Source of the DNA: a bacterium
GTDB taxonomy: Bacteria; Sumerlaeota; Sumerlaeia; MVZB01
Direction: 5' to 3'
DNA length: 48,970 bases
Assembly (NCBI GenBank): GCA_021372575.1
Contig: JAJFUE010000203.1
Location: 1 to 48,970 of the forward strand
The notes beneath the pieces are model-generated. The model was not told the DNA's origin and made no database searches. It saw nothing but the letters and a program-made list of their open reading frames with translations. This document shows positions 216 through 48,814 of this stretch, one piece after another (the stretch's first letter is position 1; every line of letters starts with the position of its first letter). The translations under genes were made by a program, and so were the position numbers.

Positions 216-2709
216 GTTGTCCTGCGATTGGACCCAGTTTCTTCAAGCGGGCGTTCCTGACGCCGATCCGCGCGCATTTTCCCCAGTTCCATCCGCGCTC
301 GGGGAAGCCGGCCGCGCGCAGCATGACGCGGACATCAAGCTCCTTGCCCGTCGGCTGAAACCGGAATTTGACCGGAATCCAGCCCTGCGCGCGGTCGCCG
401 CCGATATCGTGCGACCACATCACACGGCCGTCGATCGCGATCAGTTCGCGGATACGATTCGGATATTCGGCGCCTCCGTAGCCGTCGAAGACTTCCATGC
501 TGAGCTCGTAAAGAGCCTCGGGGTTCACGTCGGCTCGCGCTTGAATCCCGATCATGTCGCCGTGAAGCGGATCCGCAAGCGGATACGCGAACAACGGCTC
601 CGGGGCATCGGCAAACGAGTTCGACGTGATCCGCGAGGCGTCGATATTGGTGAACTCGTGCCAGATAAGATCGTTTTGAAAGAGCGCCGTGCCCGTCTCG
701 GTCGGCTTAAAACCACGATTGACGTCGCGCGGCTTCGACTCGCGGACGAGCATGTATGCAACAATAAGCGAGGCAGGTCGGGTCTTGGAACCGGCTCCGG
801 CCACACTCACCTCCACGTTGATTTTGCCGCCATCGGCTTCAATCGGGCCCGCGTCGATATACTGCAGCGCAGGCAACGGAACATTTTGTTCGGCCTTGAA
901 CAGCTTTCGATTGACCATGATCGAATAACGGACGGCCGCCGTCGATGTCGTCGCGTTTTGCAAAAAGAATGTCACGTCGTATTTCCTGCCGGGCGCGACC
1001 TCGCGCGACCAGGTCGCTTTCAGTTTGCCTTGATAGCTTTCCGGCAGGTTGAGCGAGTAGCCGAACGGCCGATGCTGAATTGGCTCGAGGTTCCGGCCGA
1101 ATTTCGCGTGCATCTCTTTGCTGATCGCCAAGCGCGGGCTCGACAAATCCGTGAATACAAACGAACGCCCGACGATCCCGTGCGACACCAGGATTTTTAC
1201 GCCCGCCACCGCGGCGATCAGGACCAGCGCCGAAATAACCGGCATTGCGACCGCGAATTGGCTGATGCCCGATTTCCTTTTGACGACGTCAATGCACGCA
1301 AGCAATCCGACCGCTGCGACCATGCTGAAATACGGCTGGAGAAAATACGAGTAGCGCGGCTGGACTTCGCCGAGCATGAGCAGCCCGGTCGCGACGGCCG
1401 AAAAAATCAGGACCGGCAGCGCAGCCGCCTTGATCTGCGTTTTCATCAGGCTGAGCAGTCCTGCCGCGCCGAACAGGAAAAACAGCATCCGCGCGAAAAT
1501 GTTCAGCAGCCGGATCGCGCTCGGCGCGTACCAGCTTCCCGAGCTTGTCGCCAGCAAATCGAGCTCGCCGCCGAGCGAATGCGCCAGCGCGATCTTGCGG
1601 ACCAGCATCCTGATGAAATCGGAGAAATTGTAATGGATTTCGCTGACGAGCCGGCCGATGCCGTAGCGCGCCAGGTCGCCGCGGTCATAGACCTGGCTCA
1701 TCAGCGCGCGGTATTTCTCGATCACGAAATAATTGCCCGTGTCGATCGAATCGTTCGCGCAGAAAATGTGGCCGATGTCGGAGTAATAAGCGGATTGGAA
1801 ATGCCCCCAGCGGATCATTCCGGCGGCGCAGACGAGATACGGAACCGCAAACATGAACACGGCCAAATAGACAATGGTTTTGAGCGGGGAATTGATTTCC
1901 CCGCTTCTTATTAGAATATATCCAATCACGCACATTACGATGAGCGTAACGAACAGGTGCATCGTGATCGCGCGGCTCAGGCCGGCGGCCAGCATGAACA
2001 ATCCGGCGAGAATCGAGAACACGGCGGCTTTGCGGAGGCTGCCCGCGGCGGCATGAACGTGCGTTTTCGCAAGCGCATACAGGAACAAAACCAGGTAGAA
2101 CAGCCCCGGCATGTCGTTGGACGGGATTTCGGAATACAGGTATCGCGCCGGGAACATAAAAAACAAAACGAACCCAACCCGCGCGATCCGCTCGTCATCG
2201 AATCCCATTCGCAGGATTTCGAATAACGCCATCGCGGCGGCCAGCATCATTGCAATATTTAATATTTTAACGGCAAACAGGCTTGGACCGGTCGCGAGGT
2301 AAAGCGGATAAAGATAAAACAGGTCGCGCTCGTGCCACATGTCGTCGATGCGGCCCAGATTGTAGCCGATGCTTCTCCGGATCATCTCCGACGCGTGCGT
2401 GTGCATCGACAGGAAATCGCCCGCGGGAACGAAATGATAACGAAATAGAACCGCAACGTGGATCACAAGCGCGATGGCGATCGTCCCGAAAATAAAAGCG
2501 CGCCGCGGGATCCGGTAAAACGCGTCCGTGCCGAACACGAGGCCGATCAATCCCAGCCCGCACAATCCCGCCGCAGCCTGAACAAGGCCAAAATGATTGC
2601 CAATGAAATCACGCCCGGCGCCCAGCAGGCCGATCGCGAGCGCGGCCAGCAGCGGAAAACAGAGCACGGCCTTGGAAACGTTCGCGACGAATCGCCCCGG
2701 CCTGTTCAT
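190..2709 (-). CDS. Polytopic GT-C-like membrane glycosyltransferase with C-terminal beta-sandwich module
   Basis: An 839-residue protein. Residues about 1-530 hold roughly ten to twelve hydrophobic helices in the layout of the PMT/ArnT-like GT-C superfamily, which transfers sugars from lipid-phosphate donors. An acidic GDF motif sits in the first large outer loop near residue 97, and an SEIPSNDMPG loop follows a later helix, as in that family. Residues about 545-660 and 674-825 are soluble and look like two beta-sandwich domains. The last one ends in a W-N-W-G..A.IGV pattern that also appears in the lipoprotein at 4368-4982. The gene follows the methyltransferase gene with a 71-base gap on the same strand and overlaps the next gene. 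Substrate is unknown; the GT-C assignment is from topology and local motifs only. Confidence 0.7.
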   Translation of the reverse strand: MNRPGRFVANVSKAVLCFPLLAALAIGLLGAGRDFIGNHFGLVQAAAGLCGLGLIGLVFGTDAFYRIPRRAFIFGTIAIALVIHVAVLFRYHFVPAGDFLSMHTHASEMIRRSIGYNLGRIDDMWHERDLFYLYPLYLATGPSLFAVKILNIAMMLAAAMALFEILRMGFDDERIARVGFVLFFMFPARYLYSEIPSNDMPGLFYLVLFLYALAKTHVHAAAGSLRKAAVFSILAGLFMLAAGLSRAITMHLFVTLIVMCVIGYILIRSGEINSPLKTIVYLAVFMFAVPYLVCAAGMIRWGHFQSAYYSDIGHIFCANDSIDTGNYFVIEKYRALMSQVYDRGDLARYGIGRLVSEIHYNFSDFIRMLVRKIALAHSLGGELDLLATSSGSWYAPSAIRLLNIFARMLFFLFGAAGLLSLMKTQIKAAALPVLIFSAVATGLLMLGEVQPRYSYFLQPYFSMVAAVGLLACIDVVKRKSGISQFAVAMPVISALVLIAAVAGVKILVSHGIVGRSFVFTDLSSPRLAISKEMHAKFGRNLEPIQHRPFGYSLNLPESYQGKLKATWSREVAPGRKYDVTFFLQNATTSTAAVRYSIMVNRKLFKAEQNVPLPALQYIDAGPIEADGGKINVEVSVAGAGSKTRPASLIVAYMLVRESKPRDVNRGFKPTETGTALFQNDLIWHEFTNIDASRITSNSFADAPEPLFAYPLADPLHGDMIGIQARADVNPEALYELSMEVFDGYGGAEYPNRIRELIAIDGRVMWSHDIGGDRAQGWIPVKFRFQPTGKELDVRVMLRAAGFPERGWNWGKCARIGVRNARLKKLGPIAGQHEQNHARP

Positions 2710-2780
2710 GGCTTCACCGGCCGCGCGATTTCGCCGGCCCGGCTTCGCGGCGGCCGCGGGCTCGTGGTGCGCGTCATCGG

Positions 2781-4163
2781 CTACTCGTTTCGCTGCATCA
2801 GGTAAAGCGTCCGCCGGCTGTCGGCCACCGGCGCGGATTCAAGAATCGTGAACCTCGTCTTGAACGCCGTCTCGAACGACGCCTGGTTGTAATCGGTGAA
2901 GATGTCTTCGCGGCTGCGCAGCAGGCGCTGGACCTGCGAGTCTTCCTTGGGCACCCATTCGATGATGAGCCGGCGCGCGCAGTCGGCGAAGAAATCGGCG
3001 AGCATCGGCAGCGGCACGTTGTTCGAGATCGAGAGGTGATGCACGAGCGCCAGGGCGAGGCCGATGTCGGCCGGGCCGCGCTCGATGAGGCTTTCGCGCT
3101 CGCGGCAGTGCCAGCCGATTCCACCCGACGGATTGGTGAGATCGATCCACAGCGGGAGGATGCGCTTTTCGCCGCTCTTGCGGCAGTCGCGGTAATTCGC
3201 CTCGACGGCTTCCTGGTCGGCGTCGATCGAGATGACGCTCATTCCTTTTTCGGCGGCGACCTTGCTGAAGAATCCGTTGTTGGCGCCGATGTCCCAAACC
3301 ATGCGCGGGGCGCCGTGGTCAAGATATTGTCCGACGAGCTCGCGCTTGTGCTCGAGGCCGCGCTGGGTGTAGTTCGTGTCGGCGTAATAGTCGGACCACT
3401 CCGAGACGCGCGGCACGTATTCGAGCCCGCGCACGCACGACTCGAGGTTCGCGAGCATCCCGAGCATGCCGGTGCGGCTCATTTTGGCGGCCTTCGCGTC
3501 GGGCACGGCGGCGTGCGTGTCGGAGTATTTCTGCTGGAAGCGCGCGTGCAGGTGGATGTGCGAGAGGAGCGACGGGCTCAGCCACGTCCGTTTCGGCAGC
3601 AACCGGCTGGTGATGTCGAGCGGCATGCCGTCGATGAACAGCCGCAGCATTTGGCCGAGCCGCCCGTCGCGCATGCGCATCAGCGCCAACGGCCCGAGGA
3701 AGTGTTGGCAGAACTGCCGGTAGGCGATCCACGGCGCGCCTTCGGCCTGGATGTCGAACGACAGCGTATCGATGAGAACCGGCCGGCCCCGGTGGAACTG
3801 GATGTTGTAAGCGGAGGCATCCTTGAGCGTCATGCCGAACGCCAGGGCCTCCTGCTGGATGCGCAGGGTGGCGAGCGCCGCGTCGCGGAGCTGGCTCGGC
3901 GACCATTCGTAGGGATAGGAGATGAACTCGACGCGCTCGGGGCGGATGATTTGATAAACGTCCGGGTCGCCGGCCTTCCCGGCCTCCTCGTGCGGGATCA
4001 GCAGTCCTTTTTCGACAAGCCGCGCGTATAGCCCCGACTGCATCAGTTTGTCGTAGCGGTCGCGGTAGCGGTTGCGCACGGAGCGGTAGAGCACCCCGCC
4101 GTCGATGAAAAGATTGCCGGAAGGATCCCGAAACGAGCCTGAAACATTGAGCGTGGTCATCAT
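2781..4163 (-). CDS. Class I SAM-dependent methyltransferase (NoeA-like family)
   Basis: A 460-residue protein. The C-terminal half has a Rossmann methyltransferase fold: motif I is VWDIGANNGFFS at about 289-300, followed by an acidic strand end ISIDAD at 311-316. The N-terminal half (about 70-200) has the pattern SYPYEWSPSQLRDAAL and LKDASAYNIQF seen in large methyltransferases annotated as NoeA-like, which are associated with surface polysaccharide or nodulation-factor decoration. Two adjacent ATGs (4161-4163 and 4158-4160) are possible starts and neither has a strong Shine-Dalgarno. It heads a minus-strand run that continues into the GT-C glycosyltransferase, so methylation of a surface glycan is a reasonable inference; the acceptor is unknown. 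Confidence 0.8.
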   Translation of the reverse strand: MMTTLNVSGSFRDPSGNLFIDGGVLYRSVRNRYRDRYDKLMQSGLYARLVEKGLLIPHEEAGKAGDPDVYQIIRPERVEFISYPYEWSPSQLRDAALATLRIQQEALAFGMTLKDASAYNIQFHRGRPVLIDTLSFDIQAEGAPWIAYRQFCQHFLGPLALMRMRDGRLGQMLRLFIDGMPLDITSRLLPKRTWLSPSLLSHIHLHARFQQKYSDTHAAVPDAKAAKMSRTGMLGMLANLESCVRGLEYVPRVSEWSDYYADTNYTQRGLEHKRELVGQYLDHGAPRMVWDIGANNGFFSKVAAEKGMSVISIDADQEAVEANYRDCRKSGEKRILPLWIDLTNPSGGIGWHCRERESLIERGPADIGLALALVHHLSISNNVPLPMLADFFADCARRLIIEWVPKEDSQVQRLLRSREDIFTDYNQASFETAFKTRFTILESAPVADSRRTLYLMQRNE

Positions 4164-4355
4164 AAATGCCTGGCGAATGATTTGCCCCGAAGGACGTTGC
4201 TTTCAACTTTTTCGGTCTTTGCGGAGGGCCGTGTCAACACTATTCTGGCGCGGGGGCGCCGCCAAGAAACAGCTTGACGTTATTGGCGGCTCGCTGAAAT
4301 CATTGAATTGGAATCGGTCGATGAGAGCGGAACACAAACAGCAATAATATATTCG

Positions 4356-4361
4356 CGGAGG
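4356..4361 (+). promoter_or_regulatory. Shine-Dalgarno that fixes the lipoprotein start
   Basis: GGAGGA six bases before ATG 4368. It excludes the longer reading frame from 4308 as the translated form. Confidence 0.8.
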
Positions 4362-4367
4362 ATCGAT

Positions 4368-4982
4368 ATGAGCATCAAATCAGTTTCCCTGTATTCGGTT
4401 TTGATCGCGGGACTGCTCGTGACGGCCGCCTTGTTCGGCTGCCGCGTCAACGAAAAGCAGGCCGCCACCGAAGGCGGGCTGGCCCCGGCCGGCGAGGGCG
4501 AAGTCGCCAGGCAGCCTGAGACCGGCGCCGACTGGTTCGCGGCCACGAACGTCCCCGAAGCTCGCCGCAACAATCCCTGGCAGGCCAATCGCGCCTCGCA
4601 GGGCACGCTGATGTTCCCCACGATGGACCCCCAGAAAGGTGACTTGATCAGCCTGACCCAAACCGTGCCGGTCAAGCCGGGCAGGGAATACAAGGTCACG
4701 ATGAGCGTCTATGACGAATATCGCGGCCTGGACAAAGCGGGCCGCTTCGAACAGCACGTCCTCGTCAACAGCCGGCAATATTGGAAACACGACATCAGCG
4801 GCGACGCCACCGGCGGCTGGATGAACGTGAGCTTCACGTTCACGACCAGCAGCGACCGGGCCGAGATCAGGGTTGAAACCGTTGCGGTCGGCAACATCGA
4901 GCCGGGTTGGACGTGGGGCAACGCCGCCCAGATCGGCGTCAAGGACCTCAAAATCGAAGAGGTCAAGCGGCAGGGCGTTTAA
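4368..4982 (+). CDS. Lipoprotein with beta-sandwich module
   Basis: A 204-residue protein starting at ATG 4368. The start is fixed by GGAGGA at 4356-4361 and by the signal peptide that begins there; an upstream in-frame ATG at 4308 would bury the signal. Residues 1-24 are a lipoprotein signal with lipobox LFGC (Cys25), and the next residues are polar, compatible with outer-membrane sorting. Residues about 84-198 form a beta-rich module that aligns with the end of the GT-C protein at 190-2709: DP..GD at the start, a Y-x-V-x-M-x-V-x-D strand, W..DI.GD, and GWTWG.AAQIGVK at the end. The shared domain looks like a carbohydrate-binding jelly roll, but no ligand can be inferred. It is convergent with the kinase gene. 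Confidence 0.8.
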   Translation: MSIKSVSLYSVLIAGLLVTAALFGCRVNEKQAATEGGLAPAGEGEVARQPETGADWFAATNVPEARRNNPWQANRASQGTLMFPTMDPQKGDLISLTQTVPVKPGREYKVTMSVYDEYRGLDKAGRFEQHVLVNSRQYWKHDISGDATGGWMNVSFTFTTSSDRAEIRVETVAVGNIEPGWTWGNAAQIGVKDLKIEEVKRQGV

Positions 4983-5070
4983 AGTCGAATTTCCGCTTGC
5001 CGCTTGCAGGGCCGCACTCCAAGGCGGTTTTCGGGGCGCGCGTTTGCGGGAATTGATTTCGAGAACAGCT

Positions 5071-8000
5071 TTAGGCCTTGGGGTTGGCCGAGTCGATCGC
5101 GGCGACGTCCTCGGCGACGGCGGTCTCGCCAAGGGGCAGGTAAATCTTGAATTCCGTGTGGCCAGGCTGCGACTGCACCTTGATCGTGCCGCCGTGGCCG
5201 TGAATCGTTTTTTGCGTCATCGGCAGGCCGAGGCCGGTGCCTTTTTCTTCCTTCGTCGAGAAGAACGGCTCGTAAATGTGCGGCAGGACTTCGGGCGGGA
5301 TGCCCGGACCGTCATCGGCAACCTCGATCACGGCGTGCGATTCCTCGCAGGCGGTTGCGACGGTGACCGTGCAGCCCTTCTGCGGCTCGCACGCCTCGAC
5401 CGCGTTCTGCACGAGGTTCAGCACGCAGTCGTGGATTTTTTTCTGGTCGCAGCGCACCGGCGGTAGCGGCTGGACGCCGGACAGGCGCAGCTCGACGCCG
5501 CGCTGGCGTGCGCTGGCCGTGTATTCCTCGACGAGCTTGCGCAACAGGTCGTTCAGGTCGTGCGGCTTGATGTCGAGGTCGTGCACGCGCGCGAAGTTCA
5601 GCATGTCGTTGGCGAGGTTGGCCAGCCGCTCGCTATTGCGCGGGAAGATCGGCCACAGCCGCTTGATGCTGGCCATGTCGTCGCGATGGACCGCCTGGTC
5701 GAGCAGGCTGGCGCTGCCGCGGATCAGGGCCGAAATGTTCTTGAGCCGGTGCGCGATGCCGGCGATCGTCTGGCCGATCGTGGCCAGGCGCTCGGCCTGC
5801 CGCAGCTGCCGCTCGAGCCGCTTCTCGTTCGTCATGTCGAGCTCGACCGAGACGAAGTGCGTGATCTGGCCGGTCGCGTCGTGGACGGGCGAGATCGTCG
5901 CGAGCTGGTCGAACACCGTGCCGTCCTTGCGCCGGTTCGTGAAGTGTCCGCGCCAGATCCGCCCCGCCTCGAGCGTCTTCCACAGCTTGCGGTAGAAATC
6001 GTTGTTCATTAAATCCTTGCGCAGGATCTGGTGCGGCGCGCCGAGCACCTCGCTGCGCGCGTAGCCGGTGATGTGCTCGAATGCCGGATTCACATACTGG
6101 ATGATGCCGTCGAGGTCGGTGATGAAAATCGCCTCGGCCGCCTGCTCGACCGCCTCGGCCAGCAACAGGTGCTCCTGTTCGGCGTTGCGGCGCTCCGTGA
6201 TGTCGCGGCCGACCGACTGGATTTCCACGAGCCGCCCGTGTTCGTCGAGCACCGCCGCGCTCTCCCAATGCACCCACCGGACGCCGAGCACCGTCATCAT
6301 GCGCTGCTCGCGCGAGGAGCGCTCGTGCGGCGGATCGAGGAGCTTCTTGATCGACGCCTCGGCGCTGGCGCGGTCGGCCTCGTGCACCATCCCGATCTCG
6401 GTCCGGCCGAGGAGCTGTTCGCGCTTGAGCCCGGTTTTTCTGCAATACGCGTCGTTGACAAACGTGAGCCGCCCGCCCGGGTCGATGCGCACGACCATAT
6501 CGACCTGCGACTCCACCATGCTGCGGTAGCGGCCTTCGCTCTCGGCGAGGGCCTGCTCGGCGCGCTTGCGCTCGCTCACGTCGCGCATCAGGCAGATCAC
6601 CGCGTTCGTGCGCCCGTCGGGATCGCGCAGCGGCGACATCGCGGCTTCAACCCAGTATTCGGCGTGCGGCAGCTCCATCAGGAACTCCACGCGCAGGTTC
6701 ACGCCGTCGTCGAACACCTTCCGGATGTCTTCCATGCGCTGTTCGCTGAGCGCCGCCGGCGTGATTTCCTGGATCGGGCGGCCGACGATATTCTCCGGGC
6801 GCAGGTCGTAGCGATTCTCGAGCTCGGGCGGGATCCACATCGATTCGCAGTGGTATTCGGAGTCGTACACGATGACCCACGAGTCGGCCATGGACGTCAG
6901 GATCCCCTCCAGCCGCGCCTCGTTGTCGCGCAGCGCCAGCTCCGTCCGCTGGCGCACGCTGACCTCCCGGCTCAGCTGGCGGTTCGTGTCGGAAAGCTCG
7001 TGCGTCCGCCGCACGACCATCTCCTCCATCTGCCACGAGTGCAGGCTCGAGTCGATGAAGTAATAGCCGACCAGCAGACTGACGACCAGCACCAGCCCCG
7101 GCAGCGACCACATTCGCCACCAGTCGGCGAGGCTGACCGTGTCCTGCGTCGCCCAGAAATTGACCCGCCAATCGATGTCGCCCTGCGTGAGCGGAATCGA
7201 GTAGATCGCGGGGCTCGAATACCAGTTGGTGTTGGAAATCTGGACCCGCTGGCCGTCGCGCGACCGGTAAATCGGCGTGCCATGATCGCGAATCTCGATC
7301 GCGAGGCCGGCCATATCCGTGCGGCTGACGAAGCTTTCGATCAGCTTGGAGGCGGAGATGAACGCCTGGATGTAGCCCGTCAGCCGCCGCGGCGCCGTCG
7401 CGGGCGTGTCGGCGAAAATGGGGACGAAGACCATGTACGAGAACTCGGACATGCCGGTCCCGGTTTCGGTCGCCTTCGTCCACGGGTGCATCGTCGGGGC
7501 GCCGGTGTTGCGCGCGCTGAGCATTTTCTCGTGCGACTGCGCGTTGGAATCGATGTTGTAGCCGATGTGGGCCGGCTCGAGCCCGCGGTTCGCGCAGTAC
7601 ACGATCGGGAAATAATAATCCCGCTGCGGGGCTTTCTCGGTGCGGCCGGTTTCGTAGTCGGTGATGCGGAATGCGGCGCCGAGTTGCTGCTTCATGCGCT
7701 GCTCGAACGCGGCGCGCTCGGAGGCCGGGACCAGCGGCACGTAACGAAGCGATTCGAGGTAGGTCAGCCGGTCGAACGCCCGCCGCGAGATCGAGTCGAA
7801 CCGCTCGCGCGAAAACTGCGTCTCCGTCGTGCACATGTCCGCGATCCACGTCAGCGCCGTGTAACAGTCCCCGATGCTGATGCGGATGTTGGAGTTGGTC
7901 TGCTGGCCGCGGACGCTGAAGGCCGATTCGAACTGGGTCTGCTCGAGGCCGCGAACATACTTGGCGAGGTACAACGAGAACACGATGCCGACAAGCGGCA

Positions 8001-41038: not shown

Positions 41039-43117
41039 ATGTATCAGCACCCAACCGGCAATTACCGGCGTTCCTGCATGTATTGCGTGATCGCATGTTC
41101 TCTCTGCCTGGCGGCGATCGCCGTTTATGGCGCGGCGCCGAAGAAAACCAGCGTGCCGGCACGGCCGGATATTTCCGCACAGCTCGACGAGGCTTCGGTG
41201 GCCGTTCGCGCCAAATACAAGGATGTGGCCGACCTGAAGCACACCGAGCCGTATTTCGGGCTCGACGGTCAATGCTGTGCCTTGTCGCTGCAGTTTGCCT
41301 TTGCGGCGCGCGAGGCCACACTTGCCATTATTTATGACCTGGGGCCCGACCGTCACGGCATTACCGCGGCCTGGGAAGGCGCGCCGATGGAGTGCGACGC
41401 GGACATGCTCGCGAGGGCGCGCGAGAGCGTCCGCGAGCGCTTCGGCATCGACGTCGCCCTGCCTGCATGGATTTATTGGACCGGCGATGTGACGCAAACG
41501 TGGGCAATCTATGAAAATGACCAATCGCGCATCGCATGCAATCTGTCCGATTTCAGGGCGCTCACATACGAACAGTTCGTCGCGCAGGCCGCCCTGTTGA
41601 GCGTTCGGAAGCCGGCGCTCAGCGTCCCCGCCGCGCCAACCGGGTTCACCGCCTCGGACGGCGCCTACGCCGACAAAGTTGTCCTGACCTGGGCTCCGGT
41701 GAGCGGCGCGACGCTTTACAAGATTTATCGCAGCACGACGAACAGCATCTACACCGCAGCGCAGATCGGCACAGACTCCGCGCCGCCATACGAGAACAGA
41801 ACATGCGCGGCCGGGATCACATACTATTATTGGGTCAAGGCGAGTAACAGCGCCGGCGACAGCGGTTTCAGCATAAGCAACAGCGGTTACCGCGCGCTTG
41901 TCACCCCGAACGCACCAACCGGCTTGACCGCCAGCGACGGCATCTACACCGATAAAGTGGTTGTCAACTGGCAGCCCGTGAGCGGCGCGACGCTCTACAA
42001 GGTTTATCGCGGCACGACCAGCAACGTCTCCGATGCCGTTCAGATCGGAACCGACTCCGCCCCGCCGTTCGAAAATAAAACAGGCACGCCGGGGATGTCC
42101 TATTATTATCGAGTCAAGGCCTGCAACTACGCGGGGGACAGTTGGTTCAGCAATGGCGACTACGGCTATCGCAAGCCGGTCGTGCCATCGGCTCCTGCCA
42201 GTGTAAACGCCACGGACGGCACCTACGCCGACAAGGTCGTTGTGAGCTGGCCGGCCGTGACTGGCGCGACCCTCTACAAAATTTACCGCGGCACAACCAG
42301 CAATAGCGGCGATGCTGTTCAGATTGGAACCGACTCCGCATCTCCATTCGAAAACAAAACCGGCACGGCCGGGAAAACCTATTATTACTGGGTCAAGGCT
42401 TGCAACGGCGCCGGCGACAGCGGTTTCAGCAACGGCAACAGCGGCTATCGCAAGCTCACCACGCTCGCGGCGCCCACGAACGTGAGCGCCTCCGACGGCG
42501 CCTACGCCGACAAGGTGGTCGTCAACTGGTCGTCCGTGAGCGGCGCAACGGGATACAAAATCTACCGCGCCACGACCGGCAACAGCGCCGACGCGATCGA
42601 GATCGGCACCGACACGTCCTCGCCGTACGAAGACAAGACGGGATCGGCTGGGAAAACCTACACCTACTGGGTCACGGCCACCAACGGCTCCGGCCAGGGC
42701 GGGTTCAGCGCCGGCAACAGCGGCTACCGGATCTCCTTCACCGGCACGTGGACGATCGACGGCCACATCGACGCGGACGCGGATGGCTATGATTACACCG
42801 AGCAGATCGACGACGAAACGGTACGCGTTTATTCCGACAAGACGTTCGAAGACAGCTGGGGATCTGGTGGCACATGGTCATCGTCCGGCTCCACCATCAC
42901 GCTCCGATACAGTTCAACGTATTTCGAGGATATCGCCTGGGAATGGTTCGGATTCGATCTGGACGTGATCTCGAGTTCGTCGAATCACCTTACGTTCACC
43001 GGAAAAATCGACGGCAACGCCATCACCGGCGGCACGATCGACGGCTATCTCAAGGCCGAATACTATGGCGACACATACACCATCGACATCGGCGGCTCGT
43101 GGCATGCGGACAGATGA
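41039..43117 (+). CDS. Secreted protein with four tandem fibronectin type III repeats
   Basis: 692 residues from ATG 41039, with GGGAGG at 41024-41029 nine bases upstream. A signal peptide spans about 12-32. Residues about 40-190 form an N-terminal domain with CC (79-80) and further Cys that I do not recognise. Four Fn3 domains of 92-93 residues follow (197-289, 290-381, 382-474, 475-566), each with ASDG.YADKVVV.W..VSGAT.YKIYR and GKTYYYWVKA.N..GDSGFS. The C-terminal domain (567-692) is beta-rich (GTWTIDG...TFTGKIDG..ITGGTIDG) and lipocalin-like. Fn3 arrays are spacers or adhesion modules in bacterial surface proteins and polysaccharide-degrading enzymes; no catalytic domain is visible. It is convergent with the secreted triplet. 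Confidence 0.9.
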   Translation: MYQHPTGNYRRSCMYCVIACSLCLAAIAVYGAAPKKTSVPARPDISAQLDEASVAVRAKYKDVADLKHTEPYFGLDGQCCALSLQFAFAAREATLAIIYDLGPDRHGITAAWEGAPMECDADMLARARESVRERFGIDVALPAWIYWTGDVTQTWAIYENDQSRIACNLSDFRALTYEQFVAQAALLSVRKPALSVPAAPTGFTASDGAYADKVVLTWAPVSGATLYKIYRSTTNSIYTAAQIGTDSAPPYENRTCAAGITYYYWVKASNSAGDSGFSISNSGYRALVTPNAPTGLTASDGIYTDKVVVNWQPVSGATLYKVYRGTTSNVSDAVQIGTDSAPPFENKTGTPGMSYYYRVKACNYAGDSWFSNGDYGYRKPVVPSAPASVNATDGTYADKVVVSWPAVTGATLYKIYRGTTSNSGDAVQIGTDSASPFENKTGTAGKTYYYWVKACNGAGDSGFSNGNSGYRKLTTLAAPTNVSASDGAYADKVVVNWSSVSGATGYKIYRATTGNSADAIEIGTDTSSPYEDKTGSAGKTYTYWVTATNGSGQGGFSAGNSGYRISFTGTWTIDGHIDADADGYDYTEQIDDETVRVYSDKTFEDSWGSGGTWSSSGSTITLRYSSTYFEDIAWEWFGFDLDVISSSSNHLTFTGKIDGNAITGGTIDGYLKAEYYGDTYTIDIGGSWHADR
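41627..42736 (+). repeat. Four in-gene tandem repeats of about 276 bases
   Basis: The fibronectin repeats are similar at the DNA level as well, with repeated phrases such as GCCTACGCCGACAA and GACTCCGC at the same phase. This indicates fairly recent duplication. Confidence 0.85.
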
Positions 43118-43207: not shown

Positions 43208-45031
43208 TCAATTCAGCGTTGGCGTGAAGTGCACCTTCTTGACCGTGACCGCGTGCACGGTGATGCCTTCGAGCTCCTTGCGGCCCATCGGCTGCAGCGC
43301 CTTGCTCGTGAGGATCTCCAGTCGCGGCCGCCACCGCGCCCCGTCCGGAATCTGTGTCTTCGTCTTGCCGTGCGTGTAGAAGAAGCAGCAGTATTTCTGC
43401 GGCGTTGCGTAGCGCGGCAGGCTGATGCCGCGGATCATCTTCGGCCTCACGCCCCCGCTCATGTCGGGCGTGTTCGGCACGGCGAAGTTGTCGGTCACCA
43501 GTTCGCCCGTCAGCGTGTCGGCGCCGACGCGGATCACGTCCGGCCCGTTGACCTCCGACGACACCGTCGGGGCGCTCAGCAGGAACTCGATGTAATACAG
43601 CTGATCGGGAACCCACTTGATCGGGTAATTATCCAGGTAATTCGGCGGCGTCTTCGTGAGGTCGATCTTGTTGTCGCCCGGCCGGAACATCGTGAGCGTC
43701 CCGCTCGTCCAGTCGGTCGCCGGCGAGATCGTTACGCTCCCGTCGCTGTTGAACTTGGCCTTGGACCCCTGGCCGCTCACGTCAAGCCCCCACGCGCTCG
43801 GCGACGACGGGTTCACCGCCGCATCGACGAACTTGTTGACCGAATACGTCAGCTCGTCGGTGACCATGTTGCCGATCGGGTGGTTCCAGATCCTGATATT
43901 CTGCACCGTAATGTCGGCCGGCGTGGCGCTCTTGGGCGATCCGGGCATCCCCATCAGCCGCCAGCTCAGGCTGAATTCGCGGTTCATCATGTCGGGAAGA
44001 TTGTTGAAGCCGTACGTGCTGTTCGAGAACTGCGGCGTCCGCATCTGCGTCGGCATCAAATACGCCCTGAACTCGTAGCGCCCGACCCCCGCCACCGGCG
44101 AGTTGGCGCCGCCTTCGTTATCGACGAAAATCGTCTCGCCGCCGTATTCGTTCTGCCCGTGCTGGCCGTCGGTCGAGAAGTTCTTGAACACGACCATCCA
44201 CGTCGGCGTCTTGAACGCCTCCATGTTCGTCGTCGTGACCTTGCCCCGGATTTCGGTGACGTTGTCCATGATGAACGGCGTCCGGAACCCGGCATACCGG
44301 CACACCCAGCTCCCGTCGTCGTTGCTCACGCGGCGCCCGCTCATGCCCATGGCATTGTTCGTTTTCGCCGCGAGCCCACCCCACTTGTAGAACCAGAAGT
44401 GGTCATCGACGATCTTCCTGAAATCGATCTTCGTCATCGTATAATCTCGGCCCGGAATTGAGCTTTCGTGATTGTTCCACGTAATGATTGTAAGCGGCCG
44501 CGACGCCGTCACCGTCGTCCCGTTGGACGCATACAGAATGATCGTCGTCGTTTCGCTCGTCACCTTCGACCCGTCATCTTTTCCGGGTTCGGGGTATGGT
44601 CCGCGTCCGCCGCCCACGCTGATCGGCGAATATTTGTTGTTGCGAATCGCGACCACCGGACACGAGCCGGGGTCGCACGGATCGGAATTCAGGTCGATCC
44701 GGCATTCGCGTGGCGGATCGACAAGATTGTCAACCAATGGATCGACCGGCTTGGCCCCGTTCAGCAGGAGGGCTTTATCCGGGTTGCTGAACGACCACCT
44801 GATGGCGCCCGCAGTGGTGTTCGCGTCGAACGCCATCGAGCTGAGCCGGAACGCCATCTTGAACACAAACAGGTTGGCCGCGTATTCTTCGCCGACGATG
44901 TAGGTGGTGTCATCGATGTCGAACACCGGCGCCTGGATTTTCGTCGCCGTCTGATCGGCGGCCCTCGCCCCCATCGCTGACACCGCGCACAGTGCCAGCA
45001 CCACCGCCCCTCGAACAAACAACCTTCTCAT
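43208..45031 (-). CDS. Secreted multidomain beta protein, paralog 1 of a tandem triplet
   Basis: 607 residues; signal peptide about 1-25 (cleavage near ARAAD), AAGGA about 12 bases upstream of the ATG. An N-terminal domain (about 33-190) has the pattern AANLFVFKMAF...IRWSFSNPDKALLLNGAKPVDPLVDNLVDPP, shared with paralog 3. It also contains DLNSDPCDPGSCP, an acidic Cys-containing loop. A first beta-sandwich (about 225-395) carries NEYGGETIFVDNEGGANSP. A second (about 410-600) carries RVGADTLTGEL, FAVPNTPDMS, and RWRPRLEILTS followed by VKKVHF close to the C-terminus. No enzyme motif is visible. The gene is 234 bases downstream of paralog 2 on the same strand. Confidence 0.85.
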   Translation of the reverse strand: MRRLFVRGAVVLALCAVSAMGARAADQTATKIQAPVFDIDDTTYIVGEEYAANLFVFKMAFRLSSMAFDANTTAGAIRWSFSNPDKALLLNGAKPVDPLVDNLVDPPRECRIDLNSDPCDPGSCPVVAIRNNKYSPISVGGGRGPYPEPGKDDGSKVTSETTTIILYASNGTTVTASRPLTIITWNNHESSIPGRDYTMTKIDFRKIVDDHFWFYKWGGLAAKTNNAMGMSGRRVSNDDGSWVCRYAGFRTPFIMDNVTEIRGKVTTTNMEAFKTPTWMVVFKNFSTDGQHGQNEYGGETIFVDNEGGANSPVAGVGRYEFRAYLMPTQMRTPQFSNSTYGFNNLPDMMNREFSLSWRLMGMPGSPKSATPADITVQNIRIWNHPIGNMVTDELTYSVNKFVDAAVNPSSPSAWGLDVSGQGSKAKFNSDGSVTISPATDWTSGTLTMFRPGDNKIDLTKTPPNYLDNYPIKWVPDQLYYIEFLLSAPTVSSEVNGPDVIRVGADTLTGELVTDNFAVPNTPDMSGGVRPKMIRGISLPRYATPQKYCCFFYTHGKTKTQIPDGARWRPRLEILTSKALQPMGRKELEGITVHAVTVKKVHFTPTLN

Positions 45032-45265
45032 CGTTCTCTTCCTTTCTTCAAAAGGCGCTTGTTGATCGTGACGCTGTCGATATCCCGCGCTGGTGTTGCG
45101 CCCGATTGATTTACCCCGTTCCTGTGTTGCGATAAACGAAATCCTCCTCTCGTGCGCCGCTCATTTTGGTCAGGGGCTCAGACGTCAGTTTGCCCAACCC
45201 CATGCACCTTTTCCCCAAACTCTTCACCACGCTGCACGCAAACGGCTTTCATTCCTCACCATTCA
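45032..45265. other. Gap between paralogs 2 and 1
   Basis: 234 bases with no supportable gene. I see no strong promoter, terminator hairpin or long repeat, only an AT-rich stretch near 45240-45265 that borders the paralog 2 stop. The Shine-Dalgarno of paralog 1 lies at the other end. Confidence 0.4.
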
Positions 45266-46642
45266 TCATTTCCCGAAATGTACTTTCTTGACCATGACGC
45301 TGTGGACCGTGATCCCGGCGGTGTTTGTCGCGCGTCCGACCGGATTCAGGTCGTGGCTCGTCAGGATATCGAACCGCGGCCGCCACCGCGCGGCGCCGGG
45401 GATCCGCGATTTCGTGACGCTGCCGGTGTGGAAAAAGCACGCGTATTTTTGCGGCTCGCCCAATCGCGGCGTGCTCAGGCCGCGCGGGCTTTTCTCGTTG
45501 AACCGCCCTCCGCTCAGGTCCGGCGTGTTCGGCACGGCGAAGTGGTCGCACACCAGTTCGCTTGTCAGCGTGTCCGCGCCCACCCGGATCACGTCCGGCG
45601 CGTCGAGCTCGGCCGCCTCGCTCGGCGCGCTTGCCGTGAACTCGATATAATACGTCGCGTTCGCCACCCACGGGATCGGCCAGTTGTCGTTGTTGCATGC
45701 CGTGTCGCCCACGCCGCTCAGGTTCGTCACGGTGTCCCCCGGCCGGAACATCACGTTGGTCCCGTCGTTCCAGTCCTTGGCCGGCGCGATCGTCACACTG
45801 CCGTCGGCGTTGAACGTCGCCGTGGCCTCCTGGCCGCTCACTTCAAGCGCCCACGCGTTCGTCGTCGCGGTCGAATTCGCGTCGGCGAAGCGATCGACCG
45901 AATAGACGACCTCATCAACGACCATGTCCTTGAGGCTGTGCCGGTAAATCTCCAGCTTGTCGAGGCACACGGTCGCCGGGTCCATGACCTTCGCCGACTC
46001 GTAAGCCGGCAGGCTCAGCACGCGGAACATCACCCGCATGTCGTTTCGCCAGTCCAGCGGCGGGGAAAAGAATCCGCTCTTCGCGCTCGCGAATTGCGGC
46101 GCCTGCATCGCGATCGGCATCAGGAACGCCGTGAACTCCGAGCGCCCCACGCCGGGGATCGGCGAGTTGGCGCCGCCCTCGTTGTCGAGGAAGAACACCT
46201 CGCCGCCGTATTCGTTCTGCCCCTCCTGCCCGCTCGCCGAGATGTTGTCATAGACGAGCATCCACGTCGGCGTCGCGAACGCCTTGCGGTTGTTGGTCGA
46301 GACCGTCGCCCGCACCTCGATTACCGAGTCTGCCGCCAGGTTCACGAACCCGTACGGCGACGCCCAGTTGCCGTCATCCTCGCCCCGATGGTGGCTCGTG
46401 ATGCACATTCCCTTCCGGCTTTCGTCGGTGCCGGGCCCCTTGGATTGCTTGAACACCCACTCGTTGGGGATTCTTTCCCGGAAGTCGTTCGCCCAGATGA
46501 GGTTCCCACGGTTGGGCTCGTCGTTTGTCTTCCCGTCGCTCCCCCGGGCAAGCGGCGCCGTGGTCTGACTCGCGGCCCCGAGCGCACACGCCATGACCAT
46601 CACGAGAAAAACCAGTACTTTTCCGCCGACCGCTTTTCTCAT
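45266..46642 (-). CDS. Secreted beta protein, paralog 2 (lacks N-terminal domain)
   Basis: 458 residues from ATG 46640-46642. Signal peptide about 1-25. It has only the two shared beta-sandwich domains: the first (about 45-235) with WASPYGFVNL, VSTNNRKAFATPTWMLVYDN, NEYGGEVFFLDNEGGANSP and CLDKLEIYRH; the second (about 262-458) with WALEVSGQEATATFNADGS, VMFRPGDTV, RVGADTLTSEL, FAVPNTPDLSGG, RWRPRFDILTS, GITVHSVMVKKVHF and two more residues. The roughly 160-residue N-terminal domain of paralogs 1 and 3 is absent, with only a short Gly/Asn-rich linker in its place. The gap from paralog 3 is 54 bases and is filled by a heptad repeat, so the two are likely co-transcribed. Confidence 0.85.
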   Translation of the reverse strand: MRKAVGGKVLVFLVMVMACALGAASQTTAPLARGSDGKTNDEPNRGNLIWANDFRERIPNEWVFKQSKGPGTDESRKGMCITSHHRGEDDGNWASPYGFVNLAADSVIEVRATVSTNNRKAFATPTWMLVYDNISASGQEGQNEYGGEVFFLDNEGGANSPIPGVGRSEFTAFLMPIAMQAPQFASAKSGFFSPPLDWRNDMRVMFRVLSLPAYESAKVMDPATVCLDKLEIYRHSLKDMVVDEVVYSVDRFADANSTATTNAWALEVSGQEATATFNADGSVTIAPAKDWNDGTNVMFRPGDTVTNLSGVGDTACNNDNWPIPWVANATYYIEFTASAPSEAAELDAPDVIRVGADTLTSELVCDHFAVPNTPDLSGGRFNEKSPRGLSTPRLGEPQKYACFFHTGSVTKSRIPGAARWRPRFDILTSHDLNPVGRATNTAGITVHSVMVKKVHFGK

Positions 46643-46654
46643 CAACGCCTGCCC

Positions 46655-46696
46655 CTCATCTCATTTCATCTTCCATCTCTCATCTTTCATCTTTCA
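46655..46696. repeat. Iterated 7-base GATGAAA word before paralog 2
   Basis: On the minus strand: GATGAAA, GATGAAA, GATGAGA, GATGGAA, GATGAAA, TGAGATGAG. It occupies nearly the entire gap between paralog 3 and paralog 2 and matches the array at 36070-36096. Confidence 0.8.
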
Positions 46697-48514
46697 TCAT
46701 TTACTAAAGTGCACCCTCTTGACCGTCATGCTGTTCACGGTGATCCCGCCAAGGTTTGTCGCGCGACCCATCGGCTGCAGCGTACTGCTCGTCAGGATTT
46801 CGAACCGCGGCCGCCAGCGCGCCCCGTCGGTGATCGTCGTCCTGCTCACACTGTGCGTGTAAAAGAAACAGCCGTATTTCTGCGGCGTGCCCGTCCGCGG
46901 CATGCTCACGCCGCGATAAATCAATTCCGTGTAAGCCCCGTGGCTCAGGTCCGGCGTGTTCGGCACGGCGAAGTTTACGCCGCATAACTCCGAGGTCAAC
47001 GTGTCCGCGCCCACCCGGATCATGTCCGGCGGATTCACCTCGTCAAACGCCGACGGCGAGCTCAGCATGAACTCGATGTAATAAAGCCTGTCGGCGACCC
47101 ACTCGATCGGCCAGTTGTCCCGGTATTGGGTCGGATCGAACGGGTAATCGATGCTGGCGTTGAGGTCCCCCGGCCGGAACATGATCACCGTGTTCTGCGA
47201 CCAGTTTGTCGTCGGCAGGATCGAGACCGCCCCGTTCTTATAGACCGTCGTGGCCCCCTGCCCGCTCACTTCCATCTGCCACGCCGCCGGCGACGTCGGC
47301 GACACCTTCGGATCGACGAACTGCGCGACTTCATACGCCGTCTCGTCCACGCGCATGTCCGAGAGGCCGTGCTTCATGATCATCAGGCCATCCCAGCAGA
47401 CCATGCCCGCGTCATACTGCGCGCCGTAACTGGTTCCCACGTCGAGCACCCGCAGGCTGATGCGCATGTCGTTGTCGGCATCGACGCGCGGATTGAAATA
47501 GCCCTCCTGCGAGTCGGCGAACTGCGGCGTTTGCATCGCGACCGGCATCAGGACGCATGTGTATTCGTAACGCCCGGTCGGCCCCCCGATCGGCGTGTTG
47601 GCCCCGCCCTCGTTGCCGAGGAAGAAATACTCGCCCCCGTATTCGTCGTGCCCCTTGCCGGTTCCGATGTTGTCATAGACCAGCGTCCACAGCGGCATGC
47701 TATACACATTCGTCTGGTTGGTCGTCACGACCAGCCGCACTTCCCAGACGCTGTTTGGCGTCAGTTGGACCACTCCGTAGGGGCTCGTCCACGCGCCGTC
47801 GTTGTCGCCGGCCGAGCCGACCGTGATGCACAGTCCGCTGGACGTGACGCTTGGGACGGCATTGCCCTGCGTGTAATTGACATAAGACCAGCCATACGGC
47901 GGGCGCGGATCGGGCGGCCAATCGTGCACGCACCCCGACAGCCGGTCGAACCCGTTGTCGAGCGTATAGACGATGATCGATCGTCCGTTCTCCAGCGAGA
48001 CCGTCGTGCCGTCCGAGCAATAAAGCATCACGACGCCCGAGTCGATGAACGTCGGCGGATTGGACCTCGTCGATCCGAAACGGTCCGAATACGGCCCCAC
48101 CCCGCCCGCCTCGTTCAGCGGTGAACGCAGGTTGTCGCGGAACGTGATCGTGCGCGGCCCCGTCTCGTCCAGCGGATCCTTTTGCGTGTCGAGCCGTTTC
48201 GCGGCCGGCGGATTGACCAGGTTATCCACGGCCGGATTCACCGGCTCCGCCCCGTTGATCCGGTAAACCCCGCCCGGGCTGCTGTAACTCCAGATGAGCG
48301 CGCTCGGGCTTGTGTTGTCGTCCTGCCCGATAAAGTCCAGGTTGATGGCGTCCGGAAAGACAAAGATATTGGCGGCCGAAGCCCCTTCCGCGTCGCCGAT
48401 GACCACGTCCGGCGTGTCGCCGACCATGGGGGGATAGTTGATTGCCGCGAATCCGCTGCCGCACGTCATGACGAAGAGCAGCGCGATCGCCGGGTAACGG
48501 GTCAGACTGGCCAT
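46697..48514 (-). CDS. Secreted multidomain beta protein, paralog 3 of the triplet
   Basis: 605 residues from ATG 48512-48514, fixed by GGGAGG seven bases upstream; a longer frame to 48577 lacks support. Signal peptide about 1-23 (cleavage near GFAA). The N-terminal domain (about 30-185) opens DVVIGDAEGASAANIFVFPDAI, then ALIWSYSSPGGVYRINGAEPVNPAVDNLVNPP, matching paralog 1. The first beta-sandwich (about 210-385) has WTSPYGVVQL, DEYGGEYFFLGNEGGANTP and RISLRVLDVG. The second (about 395-605) has MEVSGQGATTVY, RVGADTLTSEL, FAVPNTPDLSHG, RWRPRFEILTS, PMGRATNLGGITV and VKRVHF, followed by two residues. It heads the three-gene minus-strand run. No catalytic motif is seen; a structural or glycan-binding extracellular role is a guess. 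Confidence 0.85.
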   Translation of the reverse strand: MASLTRYPAIALLFVMTCGSGFAAINYPPMVGDTPDVVIGDAEGASAANIFVFPDAINLDFIGQDDNTSPSALIWSYSSPGGVYRINGAEPVNPAVDNLVNPPAAKRLDTQKDPLDETGPRTITFRDNLRSPLNEAGGVGPYSDRFGSTRSNPPTFIDSGVVMLYCSDGTTVSLENGRSIIVYTLDNGFDRLSGCVHDWPPDPRPPYGWSYVNYTQGNAVPSVTSSGLCITVGSAGDNDGAWTSPYGVVQLTPNSVWEVRLVVTTNQTNVYSMPLWTLVYDNIGTGKGHDEYGGEYFFLGNEGGANTPIGGPTGRYEYTCVLMPVAMQTPQFADSQEGYFNPRVDADNDMRISLRVLDVGTSYGAQYDAGMVCWDGLMIMKHGLSDMRVDETAYEVAQFVDPKVSPTSPAAWQMEVSGQGATTVYKNGAVSILPTTNWSQNTVIMFRPGDLNASIDYPFDPTQYRDNWPIEWVADRLYYIEFMLSSPSAFDEVNPPDMIRVGADTLTSELCGVNFAVPNTPDLSHGAYTELIYRGVSMPRTGTPQKYGCFFYTHSVSRTTITDGARWRPRFEILTSSTLQPMGRATNLGGITVNSMTVKRVHFSK

Positions 48515-48527: not shown

Positions 48528-48814
48528 TGGGACACAATCAATGAAACCGTGCGCGCGATGCGCCCGCGGCCTCCCACCCCGTTTGTTCTGATACAGCCGA
48601 TTACAAAATGAGATTCAATCGTTTACCAACAAAGAAGTATAGAGTCCTGTTCGCAACGCTGTCAACCGCCCCCCCGACGATTGTCTTGACGAAGTCGTGC
48701 TCGTCTTGCCGGCCGAAGCTATGGCGAAGGCTGGAATCCGAATCCGGCAAAGCCGGAACACAACTGTTTCACTCCGTCCGGCCATTGGGGGCCATACGAA
48801 TTCAGTCCAAACCC

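Follow-up and report, generated by a model that had tools for sequence, protein, structure and literature searches.

Several described systems display or sort proteins by a shared C-terminal part. Type IX secretion uses a C-terminal beta-sandwich (TIGR04183, Por_Secre_tail) that occurs on dozens of unrelated Sec-exported proteins per genome, and the PEP-CTERM and LPXTG ('choice-of-anchor') systems place an interchangeable C-terminal anchor on many passengers. Two other groups are relevant here: the carbohydrate-binding modules (CBMs) of families CBM22 and CBM4_9, which can be laid out in tandem (PDB entry 4xup), and the S-layer proteins (for example, the Kustd1514 family, NF052345), which are large, secreted and beta-rich. 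To our knowledge, the surface display of proteins in uncultured phyla is largely unknown. We analyzed a 48,970-nucleotide stretch of DNA (henceforth the window; contig JAJFUE010000203.1 of assembly GCA_021372575.1) from an uncultured bacterium of the class Sumerlaeia, phylum Sumerlaeota. The window encodes three adjacent paralogous proteins that end in a pair of predicted jelly-roll domains, JR1 and JR2 (the JR pair). Profile searches place the same pair at the C-terminus of many unrelated secreted proteins of the class, and we propose that it sorts or anchors them at the cell surface.

A duplicated jelly-roll module at the C-terminus

The three genes lie on the reverse strand and encode P0003 (46697–48514, 605 amino acids (aa)), P0002 (45266–46645, 459 aa) and P0001 (43208–45031, 607 aa). 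An earlier note, made from the sequence, had described them as adjacent same-strand secreted paralogs with shared signature blocks and no recognized family, and all of this was borne out. Each protein has a signal-like segment at its N-terminus, pairwise identity is 41–49% (within-genome homology at E 4e-118 or better), and about 110 columns are invariant, including the blocks EYGGE, RVGADTLT.EL, FAVPNTPD, RWRPR..ILTS and VK.VHF. P0001 and P0003 comprise a signal peptide, an N-terminal domain (N-domain), JR1 and JR2; P0002 lacks the N-domain and is thus a module-only protein. The two jelly rolls occupy 47357–47920 (approximate limits) and 46700–47356 in P0003, and, with approximate limits throughout, 45923–46486 and 45269–45922 in P0002 and 43874–44428 and 43211–43873 in P0001. 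No Pfam or NCBIfam model scored above its cut-off on the three proteins, and a Pfam Cadherin_5 match on P0002 was rejected (16.5 bits vs. a cut-off of 26.5).

The AlphaFold2 (AF2) model of P0003 (predicted local distance difference test 74, predicted template modelling score 0.68) consists of an N-terminal beta domain followed by two beta-rich domains. Using Foldseek, the best PDB match of this model was 4xup, the CBM22-1/CBM22-2 tandem of Xyn10C (E 8e-7), with reelin, MAM, ephrin-receptor and lectin-type sandwiches at lower rank. Modelling and fold search of a Sumerlaeaceae member gave a similar arrangement. JR1 and JR2 are thus predicted to adopt a jelly-roll, CBM22-like beta-sandwich fold; the models are of moderate confidence and whole-chain template modelling scores are low, which supports a fold class and not a family. 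Structure prediction and fold search, of the kind that the earlier note had called for, matched a CBM-like fold class, and no family was matched in sequence.

The halves of the module also align to each other. For the generic version of the module, which is the most widespread in the class, JR1 and JR2 align with an hhalign E-value of 3e-47 (42% identity in the lead sequence). The window-type halves align at E 3.5e-5, with '..VCWDGLMIMKHGLS' aligned to '..ITVNSMTVKRVHFS'. By these alignments JR2 is a tandem duplicate of JR1, so that the C-terminal block forms the final strand of a domain that occurs twice. The whole pair measures 330–430 aa and each jelly roll about 165–215 aa. The motif K(K/R)VHF had been said to stand at or very near the chain end, possibly as an export or assembly signal rather than part of a fold. 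The position is correct, with the amendment that five residues (TPTLN) follow KKVHF in P0001, which ends VKKVHFTPTLN; P0002 ends VKKVHFGK, and VKRVHF of P0003 lies inside the last beta strand of the model (residues 591–603). We reject a short appended signal, since this end forms the final strand of a domain and the first copy of that domain ends alike; an export, assembly or anchoring device remains the best reading of the C-terminal part. A PDB sequence search with the generic module found no match, and one with an alignment labelled A1 returned only designed beta-propeller/WD40 chains (positions 161–200) and one weak chain, which we judged spurious.

The module closes many unrelated secreted proteins

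Searched with a profile of the three window proteins, 15 of 147 genomes yielded relatives; the window-type module itself occurs in four, the window's genome (G000) and G001–G003. In large proteins of other class members a profile of the window-type pair gave weak matches, with the module at the extreme end and differing front parts. The generic profile (A7) matched 27 of the 39 class genomes and none of the 347 genomes outside the class Sumerlaeia. There are about 50 generic carriers in each of two genomes, G005 and G019, where only part of the candidates were scored and some A7 matches are fragments; three others have 31 (G009), 24 (G036) and 20 (G014) matches, and since these counts derive from profile searches, some are lower bounds. 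A third version (A9), that of the Sumerlaeaceae, was detected in 8 of the 39 class genomes, with 7–15 matches per genome in most of the family and seven in a one-contig genome. Homology between the versions extends through both domains up to the final residues (window-type vs. generic, hhalign 99.1%, E 1.4e-18, 309 columns), and the Sumerlaeaceae and generic modules align at 97.5% (E 5e-12, 325 columns). Combined, the three versions cover 34 of the 39 Sumerlaeia genomes; none of them was detected in G007, G008, G011, G016 and G021.

The position of the module in the chain is strict. In G005, all 40 carriers whose module is intact end 0–6 residues past the profile match, the longest of them measuring 2854 aa; a 41st (L128) stops inside the module. 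Across 29 genomes, 110 of 121 stop-terminated carriers end at most 8 residues past the module and 99 at most 3. Some other carriers have 12–94 residues past the match, and in a few of these the profile just stopped before the end. Among the 86 carriers with a visible start (an upstream stop was seen), 84 have a signal-like N-terminus as called by a simple hydrophobicity rule; a lipobox and a second transmembrane-like segment were each seen once. Two G005 carrier genes (L128 on contig C31, and one on C41) are interrupted within the JR pair by an in-frame stop codon (TAG, TGA) and are probably pseudogenes or assembly errors.

The proteins in front of the module are diverse. The 39 front parts from G005 include Beta_helix (13), NosD (11), TSP3 (6) and fn3 (4) domains and, in one or two proteins each, S8 (subtilase), C25, M28, FG-GAP, LVIVD, Kelch, LamG and polysaccharide deacetylase domains. 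A further 55 front parts, taken from other genomes, bring in FGE-sulfatase, BACON, cohesin and other domains, and additional passengers are a multihaem cytochrome (cytochrome c7-type), an Exo_endo_phos protein and CarboxypepD_reg. To judge from these domain matches, the passengers are mutually unrelated and polysaccharide-active enzymes do not dominate; their breadth argues against a purely substrate-binding role. In G003, a genome of the same order as the window's, three proteins carry the C-terminal part behind LVIVD repeats plus the N-domain, He_PIG (immunoglobulin (Ig)-like) repeats, and a LamG domain, respectively, and the C-terminal part therefore moves independently of the N-domain. The earlier note had asked whether the C-terminal block occurs on unrelated domains. 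It does so on many proteins, and the moving unit is the entire pair and not the tail. Three passengers (among the upstream parts of carriers in alignment A11) weakly match FlaA (PF04620, a flagellar sheath protein family); the matching region is possibly another jelly-roll domain.

Two alternative functions bear on these observations. The module could be an ordinary CBM tandem: it would direct secreted proteins to polysaccharides in the environment, and its C-terminal place would be mere habit. The fold matches to CBM22-tandem, other CBM and lectin structures point this way, as does one carrier whose second jelly roll falls narrowly below the Pfam CBM_4_9 cut-off (24.9 vs. 25.9 bits, the best score for this family). 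However, no CBM family matched any of 73 modules at E 0.01, most passengers are not polysaccharide-active, near-identical modules occur on very different passengers within G005, and typical CBM use lacks such strict C-terminal placement. We consider this quite unlikely. A narrower form of our proposal would make the pair a pure export signal for a dedicated outer-membrane machine, type IX-like, with no lasting role as an anchor. The carriers resemble type IX cargo in the position of the module, in their diversity and in sharing a folded C-terminal domain, but SprA was detected in none of the 39 class genomes (although control genomes were silent as well), TIGR04183 gave single weak matches in four of the 39, the module is large for a signal, and no co-occurring machine was identified. 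This reading is improbable.

Modules group by lineage

We compared 100 modules in a tree built by a quick search. Family labels require 17 changes on this tree vs. 64.6 in shuffles (none of 200 as low), and 19 carriers of the N-domain require 11 changes. The Sumerlaeaceae modules form one group of 22, and the three modules of G003 form another. Within G005, 18 closely similar modules are found on proteins of up to 2854 aa whose front parts differ. As far as this tree and these similarities go, the modules group by lineage and not by passenger.

The N-domain and its carrier

That two of the three window proteins have an extra N-terminal domain had been noted before, and we find it in P0003 (47921–48442) and P0001 (44429–44959; reverse strand, limits approximate in both) and not in P0002. 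From the pattern 'YVSD.DT...WSF' and 'YVSDGT', it looks like a diverged cadherin/Ig-like domain. The family is class-wide: N-domain matches, some of the weaker of which are partial, occur in 32 of the 39 genomes, mostly in one or two copies and in proteins typically of about 530–710 aa. The 347 genomes outside the class yielded no more than four weak matches, in much longer proteins (1162–4732 aa), and a search with the N-domain alignment returned seven loci, all from Candidatus Sumerlaeota, Sumerlaeaceae or candidate division BRC1. In three Sumerlaeaceae (L023, L024 and L025), the N-domain carrier is beside or near a divergent gene, which we take from its N-terminus to be FtsH-like; this neighborhood suggests that the carrier is inherited vertically at one locus.

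We scored the carrier for ribosomal-like codon usage, bearing in mind that in some of the genomes there is little difference between ribosomal and background genes. In G006 and G024 the N-domain carrier outranks every background gene (112 and 40 genes, respectively), and in G009 it reaches the 95.7th percentile. G005, G014 and the window triplet (33rd–48th percentile) show no such signal. Codon usage thus gives a hint, and no more, that the carrier is apparently highly expressed in two Sumerlaeaceae. The protein that combines N-domain and JR pair is likely the core structural carrier. Module-only proteins also exist, namely P0002 and a 354-aa protein of G019 (L212). A pattern search of the genome contigs for P0002 alone found no relatives.

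These proteins invite a third explanation, a surface lattice. The JR pair would self-assemble in an S-layer-like manner, N-domain and module-only proteins would be the bulk subunit, and other passengers would co-assemble via the pair. The wide occurrence of the N-domain protein, usually at one or two copies, its top codon-usage ranks and the existence of module-only proteins favor a lattice, and modules that pack together would be expected to be lineage-specific. The lack of a codon-usage signal in G005, G014 and the triplet speaks against it. We regard the lattice as unlikely.

Proposed function

The anatomy of the module is well supported. From this anatomy we infer, with slight preference over all other readings taken together, that the JR pair serves to sort or anchor proteins at the cell surface and is possibly glycan-binding. 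We give about an even chance to the more specific proposal of a dedicated system, in which each lineage has its own partner (receptor, glycan or lattice) that diverges along with the module and recognizes it, and the module displays tens of unrelated Sec-exported proteins on the cell surface. A carrier would leave the cytoplasm by Sec export; one lineage-specific partner would then recognize the JR pair and in this way sort the passenger to the cell surface or keep it there. Candidates for this partner are a glycan of the cell surface or matrix, in keeping with CBM-like folds, an outer-membrane receptor, and a lattice formed by the modules themselves. The JR pair would act as type IX C-terminal domains, PEP-CTERM or LPXTG do in other bacteria.

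Several observations weigh against sorting or anchoring. In three paralogs of G009 (L191, L198 and L200), an FGE-sulfatase-like domain follows the JR pair, so exposure of the C-terminus is not absolute. The cargo-free module-only proteins are explained no less well by a structural role. The lineage pattern of the modules, which a shared lineage-specific partner would yield, would also arise from copying of modules within a lineage. In the window's genome only four carriers could be detected, and these belong to a single family; our searches found no partner receptor, secretion machine or ligand. If sorting or anchoring is nevertheless correct, a C-terminal module recognizable across the class would make the surface proteome of Sumerlaeota readable directly from genomes, and a defined part of this size would be a bait for finding its partner. 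The module also links many 'hypothetical secreted proteins' of Sumerlaeota that databases leave nameless.

The triplet and its surroundings

The earlier note had proposed co-secreted subunits with different roles and had asked whether multi-copy loci recur in related genomes. The triplet is local: the sister genomes G001 and G002 hold one full-length copy each, so a conserved system of three such subunits finds no support and we reject it. A fourth, full-length paralog is on another contig (C153) of the window's 214-contig assembly. In this genome, a gene for an N-domain and JR pair would have been duplicated into the triplet, one copy being without the N-domain. P0003 most plausibly starts at 48514; the frame is also open from a GTG further upstream, at 48577. 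A sigma-70-like promoter, TTGACA-18-TATACT (48636–48665, reverse strand; 11/12, a consensus match only), is upstream of P0003, and with this one promoter-like site, transcription of the triplet as a single unit is plausible.

Convergent with the triplet (3' ends facing), a gene at 41039–43117 on the forward strand encodes a protein with four fn3 domains and then a short C-terminal region, without the JR module. The window's genome has a second tandem array on contig C133 (L235:17155–19362; L236:77–1960, 2009–4165 and 4229–6247), in which several long open reading frames lie downstream of ribosomal protein genes and at least three share 'IQYQGRLTD.AGNPI'.

Comparison with known systems

We compared the JR module to existing family models and to the literature. 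Pfam and NCBIfam hold no model for it (73 modules scanned), and PADLOC gave no match. The module was not mentioned in the literature searched, which left out most subscription papers, and the main texts of PMC8092238 and PMC10866078, on Sumerlaeota, do not contain 'S-layer', 'anchor' or 'carbohydrate-binding'.

Each of the systems named at the outset resembles the module in part. S-layer proteins share its large, secreted, beta-rich carriers; the partial NF052345 match in one carrier (residues 10–131) falls on CarboxypepD_reg-type repeats of the passenger, outside the JR pair. CBM22 and CBM4_9 share the predicted fold of the single domains and the tandem layout, but their family cut-offs were not reached among the modules, and the passengers of the JR module are mostly not glycan-active. 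The PEP-CTERM and LPXTG systems likewise serve many passengers, LVIVD proteins among those of the JR module too, whereas a JR chain closes with the module, whose end is a predicted beta strand, and has no C-terminal transmembrane segment; choice_anch_C matched one of the 73 modules weakly (E 0.0064). The type IX domain is alike in being a C-terminal beta-sandwich on many unrelated Sec-exported proteins, but it is a single domain of another family (a 72-position model that matched none of the 73 modules), whereas the JR module comprises two jelly rolls. On these comparisons, the JR pair is a previously undescribed C-terminal module, outside every named family and akin to C-terminal targeting and anchoring domains.

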